Shown one piece after another: positions 6,803 to 14,058 of a stretch of 34,699 nt of DNA. The notes below the pieces were generated by a model, which saw nothing but the letters and a program-made list of their open reading frames with translations, ran no database searches and was not told where the DNA came from. Each line of letters begins with the position of its first letter. Within the stretch, counting starts at the first letter, position 1. Source of the DNA: Patescibacteria group bacterium (GTDB lineage: Bacteria; Patescibacteriota; Gracilibacteria; Peribacterales; Peribacteraceae); contig JAHISE010000067.1 in NCBI GenBank assembly GCA_018818235.1, forward strand, positions 1 to 34,699, in the 5' to 3' direction. A program made the translations under genes and the position numbers.

Positions 6803-7498
6803 ATGGATAAACCTTCAAGCTTACATCTCGCAATCATCCCTGACGGAAATAGACGTTGGGCGAAGAATCGCAGCCTCCACCCCTGGAAAGGACACGAACA
6901 AGCAATAGAAAACTTCCGATCTATAACAGAGTGGTGCAGAAACGATCCGCGTGTGAACATTCTGACTGTCTGGTGCTTCTCTACAGAAAACTGGAAGCGT
7001 GATCCAAAGGAAATAGAGATGCTTATGAAGATGTTGGAGGATTATTTAAGAAAGGAGCAGGAAGGTTTTATCGAAAAGAAGACAAAGTCCCTTCATTCCG
7101 GAAGAAAAGATAGGATCCCCTCTTCTCTTGCGCAGTTAATTGAGGAAGTTGAAAAGAAAACTGCTGACCAGTCCGAATTTACTCTGCACTTGGCTGTTGA
7201 TTACGGTGGGAAGGATGAGATCATACGTGCAATCAATAAAATATCCGTAACGGAAGATTGCGATCTTCCGCTGCGATCAGAAAATGGTATTCGTGAGCAT
7301 CTCGACCATCCGGAATTGTCTGATATTGATTTGATCATCCGAACTTCCGGTGAACAAAGAACCAGCAACTTCTTCCTTTGGCAAACTGTTCACTCCGAAT
7401 GGGTTTTTAATAACAAGTTGTTCCCTGATTTTGAAGTTAGTGACCTAGAATCTGCAGTTGATGACTTCGCAAATCGTACACGTCGCTTTGGTTCATGA
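6803..7498 (+). CDS. uppS: cis-prenyltransferase (undecaprenyl diphosphate synthase family)
   Basis: LAIIPDGNRRWAKNRSLHPWKGHEQ, FSTENWKR, LAVDYGGKDEI, DLIIRTSGEQRTSNFFLWQTVHSEWVF; IIPDGNRRWA rather than the usual MDGNGRWA. Confidence 0.92.
   Translation: MDKPSSLHLAIIPDGNRRWAKNRSLHPWKGHEQAIENFRSITEWCRNDPRVNILTVWCFSTENWKRDPKEIEMLMKMLEDYLRKEQEGFIEKKTKSLHSGRKDRIPSSLAQLIEEVEKKTADQSEFTLHLAVDYGGKDEIIRAINKISVTEDCDLPLRSENGIREHLDHPELSDIDLIIRTSGEQRTSNFFLWQTVHSEWVFNNKLFPDFEVSDLESAVDDFANRTRRFGS
7251..7270. repeat. In-frame palindrome, copy 1 (in uppS)
   Basis: CGGAAGAT-TGCG-ATCTTCCG preceded by GTAA. Confidence 0.8.
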
Positions 7499-8442
7499 AA
7501 AACATAGGTTCAGCTCCGGGAAAAATAATTCTTACCGGTGAGTACGCCGTAGTTTTCGGATTCCGTGGTATCGCAATCCCCTCTCCTCTGAAAATGGAAG
7601 TTGAGTTTGAAGAAAACAGATCGATCGAAGGGATTGAAGTTGAGTGGGAAGGTATTAAAGGTGACGAAACAGCCTTCGCCCAGCCGTCGCTCTCCGAGCT
7701 ATGGCCGGCAGGCAAGGCTACGGCTGTCCAGGGTTGGAATTCTAATTTAATAGAGATACTAAATTCAATTCAGCAATTCAAAGGAAAGATTTTTAATGGA
7801 AAACTGACTATCAAAAACTCAATCCCACTCGGAAAAGGTATGGGATCTTCAACTTCACTCGTAATTGCTGTGGCCAGATGCATGCTTGGTGGTGAATGCC
7901 GATCCGAAGCACTTGCGATCGAGAATAAACTGTCACCAAACAACAGTGGAATCGATTTCAATGTGATTTGGGAAGGTTGTCCCATACTGTTTAAGAAAGA
8001 TGAAAAACATCAATTAATTGATATACCCAAAGACTTTCTGAGTGATGCAATATTAATTGATACCGGCACACCAAATGAGTCAACAAAGGAGTTGGTAGCA
8101 TGGGTAACCGACCGTCGTGGTCGTAGCGGAAGATCGTTATCTTCCGATAATGTTTATGAGGCATTGGAAATGATCGGAAATTGTACAGAGCGCCTCATTA
8201 ATAATGATGATTTTTCAAAGATTATTGCTGATAATTATCGCGCCCAACTCACCCTCGGCATCGTCCCTCCTCAGGTTCAGGAATTAATCGAAGAAATTGA
8301 ACAGGCAGGAGGAGCCGCAAAGGTTATGGGGGCGGGCGGGAGAACGGGTGGGGGTGGGATGGTGTTGGCTCTACACAAAAATCTGAAGAATATTGAAGAA
8401 ATAGCTGCACAATATCATCTACAATCACTCACACTTAACTAA
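7495..8442 (+). CDS. mvk: Mevalonate kinase (GHMP family)
   Basis: SAPGKIILTGEYAVVFG, IPLGKGMGSSTSLVIAVAR, SGIDFNVIWEG, KVMGAGGRTGGGGMV; ATGA overlap with uppS. Confidence 0.82.
   Translation: MKNIGSAPGKIILTGEYAVVFGFRGIAIPSPLKMEVEFEENRSIEGIEVEWEGIKGDETAFAQPSLSELWPAGKATAVQGWNSNLIEILNSIQQFKGKIFNGKLTIKNSIPLGKGMGSSTSLVIAVARCMLGGECRSEALAIENKLSPNNSGIDFNVIWEGCPILFKKDEKHQLIDIPKDFLSDAILIDTGTPNESTKELVAWVTDRRGRSGRSLSSDNVYEALEMIGNCTERLINNDDFSKIIADNYRAQLTLGIVPPQVQELIEEIEQAGGAAKVMGAGGRTGGGGMVLALHKNLKNIEEIAAQYHLQSLTLN
7671..7728. repeat. REP-like module inside mvk
   Basis: AGCCTTCGCCCAGCCGTCGC...GAGCTATGGCCGGCAGGCAAGGCTACGGCTG, similar to intergenic modules. Confidence 0.65.
8127..8146. repeat. In-frame palindrome, copy 2 (in mvk)
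   Basis: GTAG + CGGAAGAT-CGTT-ATCTTCCG. Confidence 0.85.
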
Positions 8443-8446
8443 GTCA

Positions 8447-8486
8447 TTTTCCACTTTCCACTTTCCACTTTCCATTTTCCATTCCC
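8447..8486. repeat. CTTTCCA heptamer array between mvk and decarboxylase
   Basis: ttttccactttccactttccactttccattttccattccc. Confidence 0.85.
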
Positions 8487-9512
8487 ATGACAACCGCCTC
8501 CTCCTCCCCCAATTCCGCATTCATTAAATACTGGGGCAACCGAAATAATCCCCTCAGGCTTCCTGTGGCAGATTCATTCTCTATGTCACTCGACGGTCCT
8601 ACCGTAGAAATAGATATAGAACACTCAGATGCTTTAAAAGTCATATCATTTAATCCTGATGGAACGCAGCTTGAGCTGGGCGAGAAACATGTGAACAGAT
8701 TTGGAAAGACTTTGGATATGACAAAGGAGTATTTAACAAAGTTGGGAGCACCAGATGCAATTCCTGCTTCCGTTTCCATCACCGTAAGATCTAATATCCC
8801 ACCTGCTGTGGGACTTGCCTCTTCCGCAGCAGTTTTTAGCTGCCTTGCAAAGGCAATACAGGGTTTGGTTGCTCCGGTGATTGAACTTACTAATGATCAG
8901 ACGAGTGTAATAGGTCGATTGGGATCCGGTTCTGCAGGAAGAAGTGTACATGGAGGCTTTGTTGCATTGGTTGCGGGTGAAGGTGAAGAGATCGACAGCT
9001 CTTATGGCAAACAATTCGCAGACCAGAACCATTGGACACTCCATGACATCATAGTTGTACCCACAATGCTGGAGAAAAAGGTCGGATCAACCGAAGGGCA
9101 TGCCACTGCACAAACCAGTCCCGGCTATAATGATCGAGTTGAAGCAATAATGAGCCGCAGACAACAGGAATGTATAGATGCAGTTCTTAAAAAGGACTTC
9201 GAAAAGCTTACCGCAGTGTGCGAAGAAGATGTTCTGGACATGCATCATGTGATGCAGACCTCCAATCCCCCACTTAACTACCTGACTGACGACACTCATA
9301 GGATCACAAACGGAATAATTGAGCTTAGAATCTCCGAACACCTTCCTGTGTTCTACACAATGGATGCCGGCCCTACAGTTCAGCTGATATGTACCGACGA
9401 ATCCGTTGATCGTGTTCGGGAATTTGCCTACGCACAAGAAGGATGCAAGGTTTTTGAGGCGAAGACGGGGGGTGGGGCGAGGATTGTTAGAGAGGTGGCA
9501 TTATCTGCTTGA
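8487..9512 (+). CDS. mvaD: Mevalonate (di)phosphate decarboxylase (GHMP superfamily)
   Basis: SAFIKYWGNRNNPLRLP, SNIPPAVGLASSAAVFSCLAKA, GRLGSGSAGRSVHGGFVAL, YTMDAGPTVQLICT. Confidence 0.88.
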   Translation: MTTASSSPNSAFIKYWGNRNNPLRLPVADSFSMSLDGPTVEIDIEHSDALKVISFNPDGTQLELGEKHVNRFGKTLDMTKEYLTKLGAPDAIPASVSITVRSNIPPAVGLASSAAVFSCLAKAIQGLVAPVIELTNDQTSVIGRLGSGSAGRSVHGGFVALVAGEGEEIDSSYGKQFADQNHWTLHDIIVVPTMLEKKVGSTEGHATAQTSPGYNDRVEAIMSRRQQECIDAVLKKDFEKLTAVCEEDVLDMHHVMQTSNPPLNYLTDDTHRITNGIIELRISEHLPVFYTMDAGPTVQLICTDESVDRVREFAYAQEGCKVFEAKTGGGARIVREVALSA

Positions 9513-9522
9513 TATTGCACCC

Positions 9523-9680
9523 TTGTCTGAACCATGATTAATAGGATTATCAGCCTACGCCTCTGGGCTACGGTTGACAGGAAGGATTACCTTGATTTCA
9601 CAATCAGAGCTTTTTTAAGCAAAAATCCACACTTAATGATCATGTAAATCCTTTAATCAAGAAAATCAAGGTTCAGACAA
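9523..9680. repeat. TTGTCTGAACC inverted repeat, copy 1, with nested REP-like core (9552-9580)
   Basis: TTGTCTGAACCATGATTAATAGGATTA ... AAATCCTTTAATCAAGAAAATCAAGGTTCAGACAA. Confidence 0.85.
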
Positions 9681-9684
9681 TCAC

Positions 9685-9718
9685 CACTTTTCACTATTCA
9701 CTATTCACTTTTCACTCC
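9685..9718. repeat. CACTWTT heptamer array upstream of hmgR
   Basis: cactttt cactatt cactatt cactttt cactcc. Confidence 0.85.
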
Positions 9719-9730
9719 ACAATAGTCTCA

Positions 9731-10987
9731 ATGGACCTCCGAAGCCTCCCTACATCATTAAACTCTTCCGATCGCTGTAACGAGCGTCGCAAAATCATCG
9801 AACGTGAGCTTGGAGCGGACCTTGGAGCACTGAAGATTGATCCAAATAAGCTCGGCAGTGCCGAAGAGAATAATTGCGAACAAATGTTCGGACATGTTCC
9901 GATTCCTGTAGGCCTGGCAGGCCCACTCAAAATTTATTTCAACGGTCGTAGCGGCGATTCGAAAATCGCCGATGAGAATGCCACAAATATTTTCCTCCCA
10001 CTCGCAACAACAGAAGCTGCACTCGTCGCAAGTGTTAATCGCGGGTGCAAAGCTCTCACTTTATCAGGTGGAGTTACAACCAGATCTATATATCACGGCA
10101 TGACCCGATCTCTCGCATTCCGGATTCCGGATTCCGGATTCCGAAACTTCATAGAAACAATTAACAAACTAAAACCTGAGTGGATGAAAATCGGCGAATC
10201 CACCAGCTCCCACCTCAAAATAATTAATTACTACATTGATGAATGTGATAACCATCTATTTGTAACAATCAACTGTGATACCGACGAGGCAATGGGTATG
10301 AACATGGTAACAATTGCCGCTCAGGCAATCGGAGAATGGATCGAGGCACATATTCCTGAGCTTGAATTTATAACAGTGGCCGGAAATGTGGACTCGGATA
10401 AAAAACCGAGCAAAAGAACTCATGATTTGGGAAGGGGTTACGAAGTTTTTGCTGAGGCTGAACTCTCTGAGGAAGTCATCAAGGACGTACTTCATACTAC
10501 CCCCTACTCACTACTCACTACTGCCCAAGCTAAACTTGAATCAGGCTCTAAAGTTGCAGAATCAATAGGTTCAAATCTTCAAGCTGCAAATATTATCGCT
10601 GCACTCTACCTTGCAACGGGTCAGGATGCTGCGCACGTTGTCGAGGGATCGATGGCGGATACAACAATTACAGACGTAGCGGAAGATCGTTATCTTCCGC
10701 TCCGCATATCGGTCCGTTGCCCCGCCATCCTCGTCGGAGTCCGCGGAGGTGGAACTCAACTACCTGCACAATCTCAATGCCTTCAACTTCTTACAAAACC
10801 AATTAACCAATTAACCAATCAACCAATTAACCTACACTTAGCTGAGATCATTGGAGCCGCCGTCCTAGCAGGAGAAATATCGTTATTGGCTGCTCAAGCA
10901 ACTCATACTTTGGCAAAGTCGCATAAATCACTTGCAAGAAATAGTAAAGAACTGGAAAGACCCCAGTTTTTTAAACCCAAATCCTGA
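9731..10987 (+). CDS. hmgA: HMG-CoA reductase, 3' end modified by IS insertion
   Basis: CEQMFGHVPIPVGLAGPL, LPLATTEAALVASVNRG, DTDEAMGMNMVTIAAQAIGEWIE, GQDAAHVVEGSMADTTI, GGGTQLPAQ. Confidence 0.93.
   Translation: MDLRSLPTSLNSSDRCNERRKIIERELGADLGALKIDPNKLGSAEENNCEQMFGHVPIPVGLAGPLKIYFNGRSGDSKIADENATNIFLPLATTEAALVASVNRGCKALTLSGGVTTRSIYHGMTRSLAFRIPDSGFRNFIETINKLKPEWMKIGESTSSHLKIINYYIDECDNHLFVTINCDTDEAMGMNMVTIAAQAIGEWIEAHIPELEFITVAGNVDSDKKPSKRTHDLGRGYEVFAEAELSEEVIKDVLHTTPYSLLTTAQAKLESGSKVAESIGSNLQAANIIAALYLATGQDAAHVVEGSMADTTITDVAEDRYLPLRISVRCPAILVGVRGGGTQLPAQSQCLQLLTKPINQLTNQPINLHLAEIIGAAVLAGEISLLAAQATHTLAKSHKSLARNSKELERPQFFKPKS
9952..9971. repeat. In-frame palindrome, copy 3 (in hmgA)
   Basis: GTAG + CGGCGATT-CGAA-AATCGCCG. 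Confidence 0.8.
10116..10143. repeat. ATTCCGG heptamer array in hmgA
   Basis: cattccggattccggattccggattccg encoding FRIPDSGFR. Confidence 0.88.
10503..10523. repeat. CTACTCA heptamer array in hmgA
   Basis: ctactca ctactca ctactgc encoding YSLLTT. Confidence 0.7.
10680..10699. repeat. In-frame palindrome, copy 4 (in hmgA)
   Basis: GTAG + CGGAAGAT-CGTT-ATCTTCCG, encoding VAEDRYLPLR. Confidence 0.88.
10801..10832. repeat. AATTAACC octamer array (4 units) in hmgA
   Basis: aattaacc aattaacc aatcaacc aattaacc. Confidence 0.85.
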
Positions 10988-12257
10988 GAATAGCTTAAAA
11001 CCATGCGGAAAAGGGGCATAGTGTATTTTGACATAGTCCAAATGTCTACTTAACCCATTTTTCGCTATGCAACAATACCTCCATGATGCTCTTAGAAACA
11101 ACCTTCGTCCTGTAATTAAGTATTGCACCAGGCCTCAGCAAAAAGCTGTAAGCGAGGTTGTTCGTGGTCTATTCACAGAAGCCACACCTGTCTTGAGGCA
11201 TGTTGCGCAAGACAAAACAAAAACAGTTAAAAAGCAGGCTGAAAAATACAGCTATCACTTGGGAAACATTGATGTAACAGATGAAGTTGATGCCCTTGCA
11301 TTGAGGAAAGTTAAATCTCAAGTGCGTAAGCACACAGTGATTGCCTATGATCTTTGTGATATCAACAAAGAGTTTTCAAAAAAGATTGAGAAGATGACAA
11401 ATGTATTTGATGGAAGCAGGAGAAAGATAGCACCGGGATTTTTTCTGCATGGCGTTGGTATCAATGGCATTCTCTTAAAGTTTCAAGTGCACGATAATGA
11501 GGTACACACACTCAGCCAAATTCGATCAAAGATCGTTGGAAACATTTCAAAAGAACTCAAAAACAAGGGTATCTGGGTTTTTGATCGTGGCAATGACAGC
11601 AAGACATGGTACCGTGAACTCTGTCAGGTTCACGAAGCTGATTTTATCGCAAGAGTAAAAGAAAATCGTTATGTTGTCTTAAAAGAAACTGGGGATTATT
11701 TGCTTGTGAAAGATTTGGAACCGGGCATGTATGAAGTCCACTTTATGAATTATCACAACAACAAAGTGCACACAGATATCACCTATACACTCATCATCAA
11801 TGAGCACTTGGAAGACAAAGAGCCCATCAGACTAATCAGCAACCTTGGCATTGATCAATTCACATCAGAAGAGTTTGTAACAATGTATCTGGAACGCTGG
11901 GGTATTGAGAATGTTTTCAAAAGAGCAAAGCAGAAGTTTTGTCTTGAAAAGATCAGAGTTCTGAGTTTTCGGAAGTTCAAGAACCTTGTGTCTCTCATTC
12001 AGCTTGCAACCATTATTGCTACTGTAACATTTGTTGCCATTCAGAAGTCCACACATGCAGTTATCGTTGCTGTTGTGAAACTTTACAAAAACTTCCTGTG
12101 GCATCGTTCACTTGAACAAAATCTCGACTCCTTCATTGCATTCATGCAGGCATCTTTGCCAAGACTTGTACATCGTATCAAACTTCCTTCTGACCAAATG
12201 AGCCTGTTTTCAAGGAAGTGTTTAAACAGAGTGGGGTAAAAACTGGGGTCTTTTCAG
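10952..12257 (+). mobile_element. IS4-superfamily-like insertion sequence, 1306 bp
   Basis: TIR CTGGAAAGACCCCAGTTTTT vs CTGAAAAGACCCCAGTTTTT (19/20); 7-bp target duplication TAAAGAA at 10945-10951 and 12258-12264; encloses a DDE transposase. Confidence 0.9.
11067..12239 (+). CDS. DDE transposase (IS4-like)
   Basis: HTVIAYDLCDI, GIWVFDRGNDSKTWY, YLERWGIENVFKRAKQKFCLEKIRV. Confidence 0.88.
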   Translation: MQQYLHDALRNNLRPVIKYCTRPQQKAVSEVVRGLFTEATPVLRHVAQDKTKTVKKQAEKYSYHLGNIDVTDEVDALALRKVKSQVRKHTVIAYDLCDINKEFSKKIEKMTNVFDGSRRKIAPGFFLHGVGINGILLKFQVHDNEVHTLSQIRSKIVGNISKELKNKGIWVFDRGNDSKTWYRELCQVHEADFIARVKENRYVVLKETGDYLLVKDLEPGMYEVHFMNYHNNKVHTDITYTLIINEHLEDKEPIRLISNLGIDQFTSEEFVTMYLERWGIENVFKRAKQKFCLEKIRVLSFRKFKNLVSLIQLATIIATVTFVAIQKSTHAVIVAVVKLYKNFLWHRSLEQNLDSFIAFMQASLPRLVHRIKLPSDQMSLFSRKCLNRVG

Positions 12258-12450
12258 TAAAGAATAATTGACTTATGCCCTGTTTTATTGCAAGATACTG
12301 CACTCATATCCTCTTTTGGATATGCGTTCATTCCCATCAAAGGACAACGGATAAATCTCCGGAATCAAAAACCGGAAGATGAAGATATCCCAATCTAGTT
12401 GATCAAGTAACCGTCACCCGTCACACGTTTCGCGAAAGAAGGAAGAACCA

Positions 12451-12828
12451 ATGAGAAAAGCTTTGCTGACCACATTGTCGTGGATTGTAGTCGTAGCACT
12501 CATCATGCTTGTTTGCCAATCGATCCGTCAACAGGATCGGAACACAAGTCAATTCCTGATGATGGATAAGTCAAACCGTGTTATTTCCGCCTCAAAAGAA
12601 AGGCACGAACAAAAAATCGCCCATATACTCGAGAGCCCACTAGACCCGGAATTGGACAAAGATACATGGAAGTATCTGAATTGGGAAAGGAAGGAATTGG
12701 ATCTTATGATCCAGAAACACAACAACGAAATCTCTTGTTATGGTTATGACAAAGAAACACCGGCGAGCGAGTACAAACCGATTCCCAAAATCCCGGCCAT
12801 TCAGTGGCCGGAAACTGCCCCACCGTGA
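12451..12828 (+). CDS. Small hypothetical protein with N-terminal membrane anchor
   Basis: RBS-like GAAGGAAGAACC upstream; LSWIVVVALIMLVCQS helix; followed by a strong terminator. Confidence 0.65.
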   Translation: MRKALLTTLSWIVVVALIMLVCQSIRQQDRNTSQFLMMDKSNRVISASKERHEQKIAHILESPLDPELDKDTWKYLNWERKELDLMIQKHNNEISCYGYDKETPASEYKPIPKIPAIQWPETAPP

Positions 12829-12869
12829 CCCAACCAACCGTTGTCCAATTCATGTTAATGGGAACCGAT

Positions 12870-12899
12870 CCCGACGTCCACAGCGACGTCGGGGTTTTT
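12870..12899 (+). terminator. Rho-independent terminator
   Basis: CCCGACGTC-CACAGC-GACGTCGGGGTTTTT. Confidence 0.88.
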
Positions 12900-12907
12900 G
12901 ACATATT

Positions 12908-13020
12908 TGTCTGAACCCACTTGTCTGAACCATGATTAAAAGGATTATTTGATTACCTTGATTGCCTTAATCAGTATAATCAAGTTAATCCTTTAATCGT
13001 GTAAATCAAGGTTCAGACAA
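12908..13020. repeat. TTGTCTGAACC inverted repeat, copy 2
   Basis: TTGTCTGAACCATGATTAAAAGGATTA ... TTAATCCTTTAATCGTGTAAATCAAGGTTCAGACAA, abutting the hmgS ATG. Confidence 0.85.
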
Positions 13021-14058
13021 ATGCACTCCTCAATAATCTCCTTCGGCCAATACATCCCCTCCAAACGAATCAAAACTGAGGAGATTGCACGGCAACATTC
13101 AAAGGATCCTGCTCCTTATATAAAAGGATTGGGAGTAACCGAGAAATCAGTCCCCAACCAAGGCGAAGATACTTTTACGATGGCGGTTGAGGCGGGTAGG
13201 CAAGCATTAAACTCCGTAGCGGAAGATCGATATCTTCCGCCCCTGCGATCCTCGCAAATTTCCGCTGTCTTCGTCGGCTCCGAAAGTCACCCGTACGCAG
13301 TTAAACCCACAAGCGGAATGGTAGCCTCCGCACTTGAGTGTCATCCCTTCTGTCATTGTGCTGACTTGGAGTTTGCATGCAAAGCCGGAACCGCAGCAAT
13401 GCAAATTGTTGATAGCATGGTGAGGTCCGGTCAGATTGAATATGGAATGGCTATAGGATCGGATACTGCTCAAGGCAAACCCGGTGATGCACTCGAGTAC
13501 ACAGCTGCCGCAGGAGCAGGTGCGATCATACTTGGACCGGAAAATTCCAAGAATGCCATCTGCAGAATAGAAAAGACGCTATCTTTTACATCAGACACTC
13601 CTGACTTTTGGAGAAACTCAGAGAAAAAGTACCCCGAACATGCCGGGCGCTTTACGGGTGAGCCTTCTTATTTCCGTCATACCGAAGAAGCACTAAAAGG
13701 AATACTCGAAATTACTAAAATGGAGGTTGGCGACTTTGCTCACGCAGTATTCCACATGCCCAATGCAAAGTTCCCTTCCAAGATTGCAAATAAATTCGGA
13801 TTTACCAAAGAGCAAATGGAACATGGCTTCATTGTTCCCAAAATTGGGAACACATACAGTGCATGTTCACTGCTTGGGCTGATATCAGTTCTGCAAAAAG
13901 CAAAGAAAGATGAAAAGATACTTCTTGTTAGCTACGGATCGGGTGCGGGGTCGGATGCGTTTGTGTTTACGATGCTGAAGGATGGAGTTGAACTACCCTC
14001 AGATGAAAGAGCAACTGAATATGTGGATTATAATGAGTATGTAAGGTGTACTTCTTAA
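13021..14058 (+). CDS. hmgS: HMG-CoA synthase, archaeal-type
   Basis: VFVGSESHPYAVKPTSGMVA, FACKAGTAAMQ, GKPGDALEYTAAAGAGA, DTPDFWRNSEKKYPEHAGRFTGEPSYFRH. Confidence 0.92.
   Translation: MHSSIISFGQYIPSKRIKTEEIARQHSKDPAPYIKGLGVTEKSVPNQGEDTFTMAVEAGRQALNSVAEDRYLPPLRSSQISAVFVGSESHPYAVKPTSGMVASALECHPFCHCADLEFACKAGTAAMQIVDSMVRSGQIEYGMAIGSDTAQGKPGDALEYTAAAGAGAIILGPENSKNAICRIEKTLSFTSDTPDFWRNSEKKYPEHAGRFTGEPSYFRHTEEALKGILEITKMEVGDFAHAVFHMPNAKFPSKIANKFGFTKEQMEHGFIVPKIGNTYSACSLLGLISVLQKAKKDEKILLVSYGSGAGSDAFVFTMLKDGVELPSDERATEYVDYNEYVRCTS
13220..13239. repeat. In-frame palindrome, copy 5 (in hmgS)
   Basis: GTAG + CGGAAGAT-CGAT-ATCTTCCG, encoding VAEDRYLPP. Confidence 0.88.

Follow-up and report, generated by a model that had tools for sequence, protein, structure and literature searches.

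Why should several genes of a mevalonate cluster carry short perfect palindromes inside their reading frames? The question is raised by a 34,699-nucleotide contig (JAHISE010000067.1 of assembly GCA_018818235.1; the whole stretch analysed, hereafter the window) from an uncultured, small-genome Patescibacteria group bacterium of a lineage that, judged from its named relatives, is Peregrinibacteria/Peribacterales, and in which a reading made from the sequence alone had reported hairpins within uppS, mvk, hmgR and hmgS. We consider it likely that these palindromes are GTAG-type repetitive extragenic palindromes (REPs) of a Peribacterales system, spread by a REP-associated tyrosine transposase (RAYT) and surviving in frame at tolerant loops of the encoded proteins.

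All five copies are present where the sequence-only reading placed them. Those at 7251, 8127, 10680 and 13220 each read CGGAAGAT-N4-ATCTTCCG with no mismatch, the variant at 9952 reads GTAG-CGGCGATT-CGAA-AATCGCCG, and every copy is enclosed by an uninterrupted frame: one each in uppS, mvk and hmgS and two in hmgR, genes whose families Pfam confirms (Table 1). The window holds five matches to CGGAAGAT-N4-ATCTTCCG at up to three mismatches, against 0.11 expected from shuffles; a three-mismatch match at 12373 is taken as chance. The foot tetranucleotide is GTAG in four copies and GTAA/GCAG in one. The uppS copy lies on the minus strand, where its loop is CGCA and its foot GCAG, and its 8-bp stem is perfect; the mvk copy has lost its right foot, which reads ATAA.

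Table 1. Positions of the palindrome copies and their host genes in the window, and of REPs near one family of paralogues in a relative (G107)
Feature	Position	Strand	Description
GTAG-REP copy in uppS	7247..7274	-	+ strand reads GTAA-CGGAAGAT-TGCG-ATCTTCCG-CTGC; encodes VTEDCDLPL
GTAG-REP copy in mvk	8123..8146	+	GTAG-CGGAAGAT-CGTT-ATCTTCCG; encodes RSGRSLSS
Second-stem-type GTAG-REP copy in hmgR	9948..9971	+	GTAG-CGGCGATT-CGAA-AATCGCCG; encodes RSGDSKIAD
GTAG-REP copy in hmgR	10676..10703	+	GTAG-CGGAAGAT-CGTT-ATCTTCCG-CTCC; encodes VAEDRYLPL
GTAG-REP copy in hmgS	13216..13239	+	GTAG-CGGAAGAT-CGAT-ATCTTCCG; encodes VAEDRYLP
uppS, host gene	6803..7498	+	uninterrupted frame; Pfam PF01255
Mevalonate kinase (mvk), host gene	7495..8442	+	uninterrupted frame; family confirmed with Pfam
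HMG-CoA reductase (hmgR), host gene, 2 copies	9731..10987	+	uninterrupted frame; Pfam PF00368
HMG-CoA synthase (hmgS), host gene	13021..14058	+	uninterrupted frame; family confirmed with Pfam
REPs 5' of ~570-aa paralogues in G107	L277 2589; L278 2581; L279 2629; L280 2639; L282 2651		

The octapeptide VAEDRYLP is common to HMGR and HMGS, as had been noticed, and this sharing is what might speak for a protein-level tag or a set of functional residues. The other copies in the window encode VTEDCDLP, RSGRSLSS and RSGDSKIAD because their frame or their stem is different, and in-gene copies as a whole use all three reading frames (VAEDxxLP, RSGRSxSS or QRKIxIFR); it is therefore the DNA, not the peptide, that is conserved. 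Moreover, the octapeptide is absent from all 28 HMGS relatives, and copies that we find within RAYT genes retain the hairpin, not the peptide. The changes of frame refute the protein-motif reading, to which we give next to no credence. The frame also bears on the foot, for which GTAG-type REPs have GTAG or, more broadly, GT(A/G)G: among the 47 copies located in long frames, 31 have an exact GTAG there and 8 have GCAG. The QRKIxIFR frame would read a TAG stop from a GTAG foot; in-gene copies in this frame have GCAG, ACAG or GTGG, and open reading frames with an intact GTAG there start at the element.

The hairpin is not particular to mevalonate genes. The window's own genome (G000; 1.58 Mb in 164 contigs, with relatives coded G001 and so on) holds 19 perfect copies of CGGAAGAT-N4-ATCTTCCG, none with one mismatch and one with two, against none at up to one mismatch and three at up to three for the same pattern read backwards, which served as background control; the motif is thus in genome-wide excess. 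Copies of the CGGAAGAT type also lie within isoleucyl-tRNA synthetase (ileS), uvrC, murB and superoxide dismutase (sod) and close to the starts of the dGTPase and GAPDH genes, and other copies are intergenic or within short frames. The absence of copies from housekeeping genes that had been remarked upon therefore holds within the window and fails across the genome, and the association with mevalonate genes has to be given up. A looser pattern, AGCGG-N14-CCG, recovers other equally complementary stems (CGGAAAGC, CGGCGGTT, CGGAGGTT-CATG, CGGAGAGC and CGGCGATT-CGAA), such that the genome has about ten variants besides the 19 perfect copies, sharing the AGCGG...CCG frame and including ones inside TsaC and a cobalamin adenosyltransferase. 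Stems are 8-20 bp long with a 4-nt loop, and the element, at about 28 nt, falls within the 20-40 bp range of REP palindromes. Hairpins of at least 10 bp number 38 in the real stretches and 0 in triplet-shuffled sequence of those stretches; the shuffles and the backwards-pattern control rule out a chance origin. The core is carried by 13 of 75 family genomes from 5 genera (control 0), and its presence in 13 separate genomes makes an assembly artefact unlikely. An inverted pair of REPs, its members 56 bp apart, lies on contig C144 of G000. We note that relatives have further GTAG hairpins of GTAGGGGCTTGG-CGCG-CCAAGCCCCTAC and GTAGAGACGCGCG types (L079 2526, L082 6004, L079 5402, L091 5466 and L371 6458), and that the family therefore hosts several GTAG REP classes.

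Comparison with homologues, from which the elements are absent, upholds the proposal that DNA-level palindromes were inserted in frame at tolerant loops. The HMGS of the window exceeds its 28 relatives by exactly 7 codons (21 nt); in the PDB, chain 6esq_I comes closest and is likewise without the 7 residues. (An AlphaFold model of HMGS, with a mean predicted local distance difference test score of 59, only suggests that the insert is in a loop, and we did not rely on it.) The HMGR insert at 10676 adds about 4 codons compared with relatives, in a loop of variable length. At the 9948 site of HMGR the CGGCGATT hairpin is common to the window and to G001 and G002, which belong to the same genus; in G003 the place is taken by another GTAG palindrome, also perfect (GTAGCCGCGACG-CCGG-CGTCGCGGCTAC), and G004, like all other relatives in the family, has an empty site. 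At the MVK site G001 and G002 have a CGGCGATT-CGAA hairpin where the window has CGGAAGAT, and G003, G004 and others are without it. The loop that holds the uppS copy varies in length among relatives, and tandem repeats or other palindromes occupy the same spot; more widely, the UppS (L156-L158), MurB (L187-L201) and MnmA (L216, L218) loops of other genomes contain in-frame tandem repeats or unrelated palindromes. Certain loops have therefore been filled repeatedly, and from these alignments the UppS, MurB and MnmA loops appear to be general insertion-tolerant loops of this family. Essential enzymes carry 4-10 extra residues in this way, the net insert of about 12-30 nt not being simply equal to the length of the element.

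Two further loci offer filled and unfilled sites. Downstream of groEL (L090 1950; orthologues L299 and L296), G055, G036 and G099 have REP hairpins and G098 and G097 an ordinary terminator-like hairpin, and it may be that REPs replaced a terminator at this site. In G055, two paralogous membrane-protein genes (L087 4556 and L090 4854) have a hairpin at the identical position; their orthologue in G097 (L269) is without the hairpin but keeps CGCAGCGG at the site, which could be either a target motif or a remnant.

The transposases of relatives tie the palindromes to a REP system more directly. A GTAG foot joined to a hairpin is characteristic of the REPs that RAYTs handle. Such a sequence is the in vitro substrate of TnpA_REP/RAYT proteins (PMC8266576), and by one description a RAYT gene always stands between two REPs in inverted orientation (PMC2817692). 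Y1_Tnp genes are present in 34 of 60 relatives. In G003, G035, G097 and G107 we find the CGGAAGAT hairpin inside the RAYT frame itself, at a fixed position that has the helix SFKRN..DIR on one side and WQK on the other; a family-wide search followed by inspection places other perfect hairpins of 10-20 bp at that position in G098, G015, G109, G004, G052, G007 and G010. An internal palindrome of at least 10 bp is thus present in 11 of the 19 complete frames examined, from 8 genera; stems are weaker in G028 and G027 (9 bp) and in G050 (8 bp), and among these 19 frames those of G001, G002, G023, G029 and G030 have no hairpin at this position. Codon shuffles of the 11 strong frames give maximum stems of 8-11 bp, against the 10-20 bp observed. 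The two RAYT proteins tested against the NCBIfam profile NF047646 'REP-associated tyrosine transposase', those of G003 and G035, pass it with 90.3 and 102.9 bits (cut-off 80), and RAYT matches fall under the IS200 cut-off. Among PDB structures the sole relative is TnpA_REP of E. coli (4er8); the RAYTs have the HuH motif as PDHMH or PDHLH and an invariant tyrosine in A1, which alignment to 4er8 suggests is the catalytic one. In G001 and G002, REPs of the CAGCGATT/GGTT-CGAA type lie on either side of the RAYT gene; this stem type is the one found at window 9952 and in hmgR and mvk of G002. Taken with the RAYTs that contain CGGAAGAT, these flanking REPs tie both stem types of the window to RAYTs of sister species.

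The sequence-only reading had also proposed that the hairpin itself is maintained, and paired changes bear this out. When ten distinct RAYT-internal hairpins are aligned on their loops, 96.7% of cells are paired, a percentage inflated by the picking of rows for being hairpins; the fixed position and the stem lengths do not depend on that selection. Both sides of the stem have changed in 10 of 12 pairs, with 36 such cells compared with 9.9 in shuffles (0/500). The stem differs between lineages with complementarity kept. Protein conservation cannot explain the hairpin, because it is not read in the same frame in all RAYTs. In small, descriptive sets of orthologous sites we see the same behaviour. 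At miaA, four species of one genus with homologous flanks have the stems GGAAGAT, GGAGACC and GGAGGTT; at mnmA, in the same genus, one has GGAAGAT, another GGAGAGT and a third an imperfect GGAGGTT; and at murB the core is kept in three species, with three outer pairs changed on both sides. The hairpin is maintained while its sequence changes, we infer, by in-place paired changes together with turnover of stem types.

These replacements also bear on whether the palindrome might serve as a DNA uptake signal or be bound by a chromosomal protein, as parS, Noc sites or operators are. All 19 copies in G000 have a perfect core, with none at one mismatch, as might be the case for such a site, and in G107 five CGGAAGAT REPs stand directly 5' of the start codons of divergent, cysteine-rich (zinc-ribbon-like) paralogues of about 570 aa, within the start region, where a regulatory use or replacement of the ribosome-binding site is possible. 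A binding site would nevertheless hardly be expected to have its core stem fully replaced at orthologous sites of sister species, as at miaA, or to occur as patchily among family genomes as this one does, and we regard this explanation as very unlikely.

The same paired changes might instead arise without a transposase, through replication slippage or template switching (quasipalindrome correction), in which tolerant loops would collect palindromes and repeats and one arm would be recopied onto the other. The MurB arms altered on both sides among three species fit this, as do the unrelated palindromes and tandem repeats in the same loops of other genomes, and so does genus g33, in which about 8 nt (7-8 nt) outside GTAG are unique to each copy yet mutually complementary. 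At positions 9-12 pairing with the own partner is 0.59, 0.54 and 0.43 in G055, G098 and G097, compared with 0.26, 0.28 and 0.20 with a swapped partner, and arm pairing ends at a 20-bp stem; outer-arm complementarity is absent from G000, G035 and G107. The matching arms come either from a copying of the flank onto itself during insertion or from template switching afterwards, and the G055/G036 pair at L086:3323, which has the left arm alone in common, suggests that the right arm is the copy. Slippage in place does not, however, explain identical stem types at unrelated loci and in the RAYT of one genome: G098 has the GGAGAGT stem in both mnmA and RAYT, a recurrence that favours copying or exchange rather than compensation one point at a time. 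Nor does it explain a foot and core conserved across genera, and we consider it an unlikely account.

How far is such a system already known? The elements described here share with GTAG REPs and REPtrons the GTAG foot, the short perfect hairpin, the several stem families per genome, the NF047646-type RAYT, the inverted REP pairs and stems that evolve with complementarity kept. As in those systems, there are multiple dispersed copies per genome, and G001 and G002 have a cognate RAYT with adjacent REPs (the flanking CGATT-CGAA type). Several species are reported to have GTAG REPs within genes (PMC3733652, PMC2817692), so that what the window shows is, taken alone, a further instance of something known. 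Our elements differ in their moderate copy number, in the variable inverted outer arms of one genus and in the large share of copies within conserved genes, whereas GTAG REPs are typically, if not absolutely, mostly extragenic. They differ, too, in that a REP lies in the RAYT frame at a fixed position and not solely beside it; the accounts of REPs and RAYTs consulted here (PMC2817692, PMC3733652) describe flanking or end-overlapping REPs only, and the unusual part of the present case is the REP within the RAYT frame at a conserved position. In the part of the literature that we searched we found no report of REPs or RAYTs for the Peribacterales, members of the candidate phyla radiation.

The sequence-only reading had likened the palindromes to Rickettsia palindromic elements (RPEs), and selfish elements of that sort would likewise be carried in frame within many unrelated conserved proteins. 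The likeness goes little further: RPE-4/6 are classed as REPs of the CGTC type, which lack a dedicated transposase, and RPE-1 is a longer palindrome (PMC3733652), whereas the present elements have a GTAG foot, span about 28 bp and track RAYT transposases, and we think an RPE-like origin highly improbable. In Nematomorpha mitochondria, perfect inverted repeats are likewise reported to be kept in coding genes (PMC6649704), but these are mitochondrial and reach 284 bp, compared with short REP cores recurring across genomes here. Members of IS200/IS605 share with RAYTs, their relatives, a HuH/Y1 transposase acting on single-stranded DNA hairpins, but no element boundaries or mobile transposase unit are defined in our case. 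Overall, the interpretation made from the sequence alone is partly supported.

Several observations weigh against a RAYT-spread GTAG REP, in addition to the selection of RAYT rows mentioned above. With 19 perfect copies and about 10 variants, the genome falls short of the more than 100 copies usual for classical REPs. In the assembly to which the window belongs we found no intact RAYT from the subfamily that bears hairpins; it has two distant Y1 genes and, on contig C118, a fragment of a RAYT that contains a CAGCGACT-CCGT hairpin. Sampling 414 kb of G015 and 170 kb of G004 turned up no copy of the RAYT-internal hairpin type other than the internal one, and an internal hairpin therefore does not imply dispersal. 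Finally, the net insert length (12-30 nt) differs from that of one element, and the comparisons stop short of demonstrating a clean simple insertion.

A REP system could nonetheless work as follows. The unit, of about 28 nt, would consist of a GTA/CG foot and a hairpin whose loop has 4 nt; the RAYT, as a HuH tyrosine transposase, would recognise the single-stranded hairpin and place copies at new sites, and those copies that keep the frame at residue-tolerant loops would survive. Mobility by RAYT, like the mechanism as a whole, is put forward from sequence comparison. The RAYT-internal REP is probably a cis recognition or autoregulatory site as well as the source of dispersed copies. Whether the fuller picture is correct, in which a REP built into the middle of the RAYT frame serves as a covarying cis-element, its relatives are tolerated in frame in essential enzymes and, in one genus, elements are edited in place through flank-copied arms and stem swaps at orthologous sites, seems to us an evenly balanced question. 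A lineage with a REP in the transposase frame, and with coding genes whose empty orthologous sites allow dispersed copies to be dated, makes both the spread of REPs and the host role of domesticated RAYTs testable. Such insertions are also a route by which streamlined genomes place new residues in essential enzymes.

The window contains other repeats. An insertion sequence at 10951-12258, with a DDE_Tnp_1 transposase (11067-12239) and 21-nt inverted ends that are 95% complementary, overlies the 3' end of hmgR, and the final residues of HMGR are therefore derived from it. A longer imperfect inverted repeat, resembling a miniature inverted-repeat transposable element and with the ends TTGTCTGAACC...GGTTCAGACAA, is present in two copies, at 9522-9680 before hmgR and at 12918-13023 before hmgS. 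Lastly, further palindromes at 16823, 2361, 2433 and 16697 form GGCACGTCTCA-CATG-TGAGACGTGCC and CCCCTCTCCTC-type hairpins, and hairpins like these recur at several loci in the same genome and in relatives.

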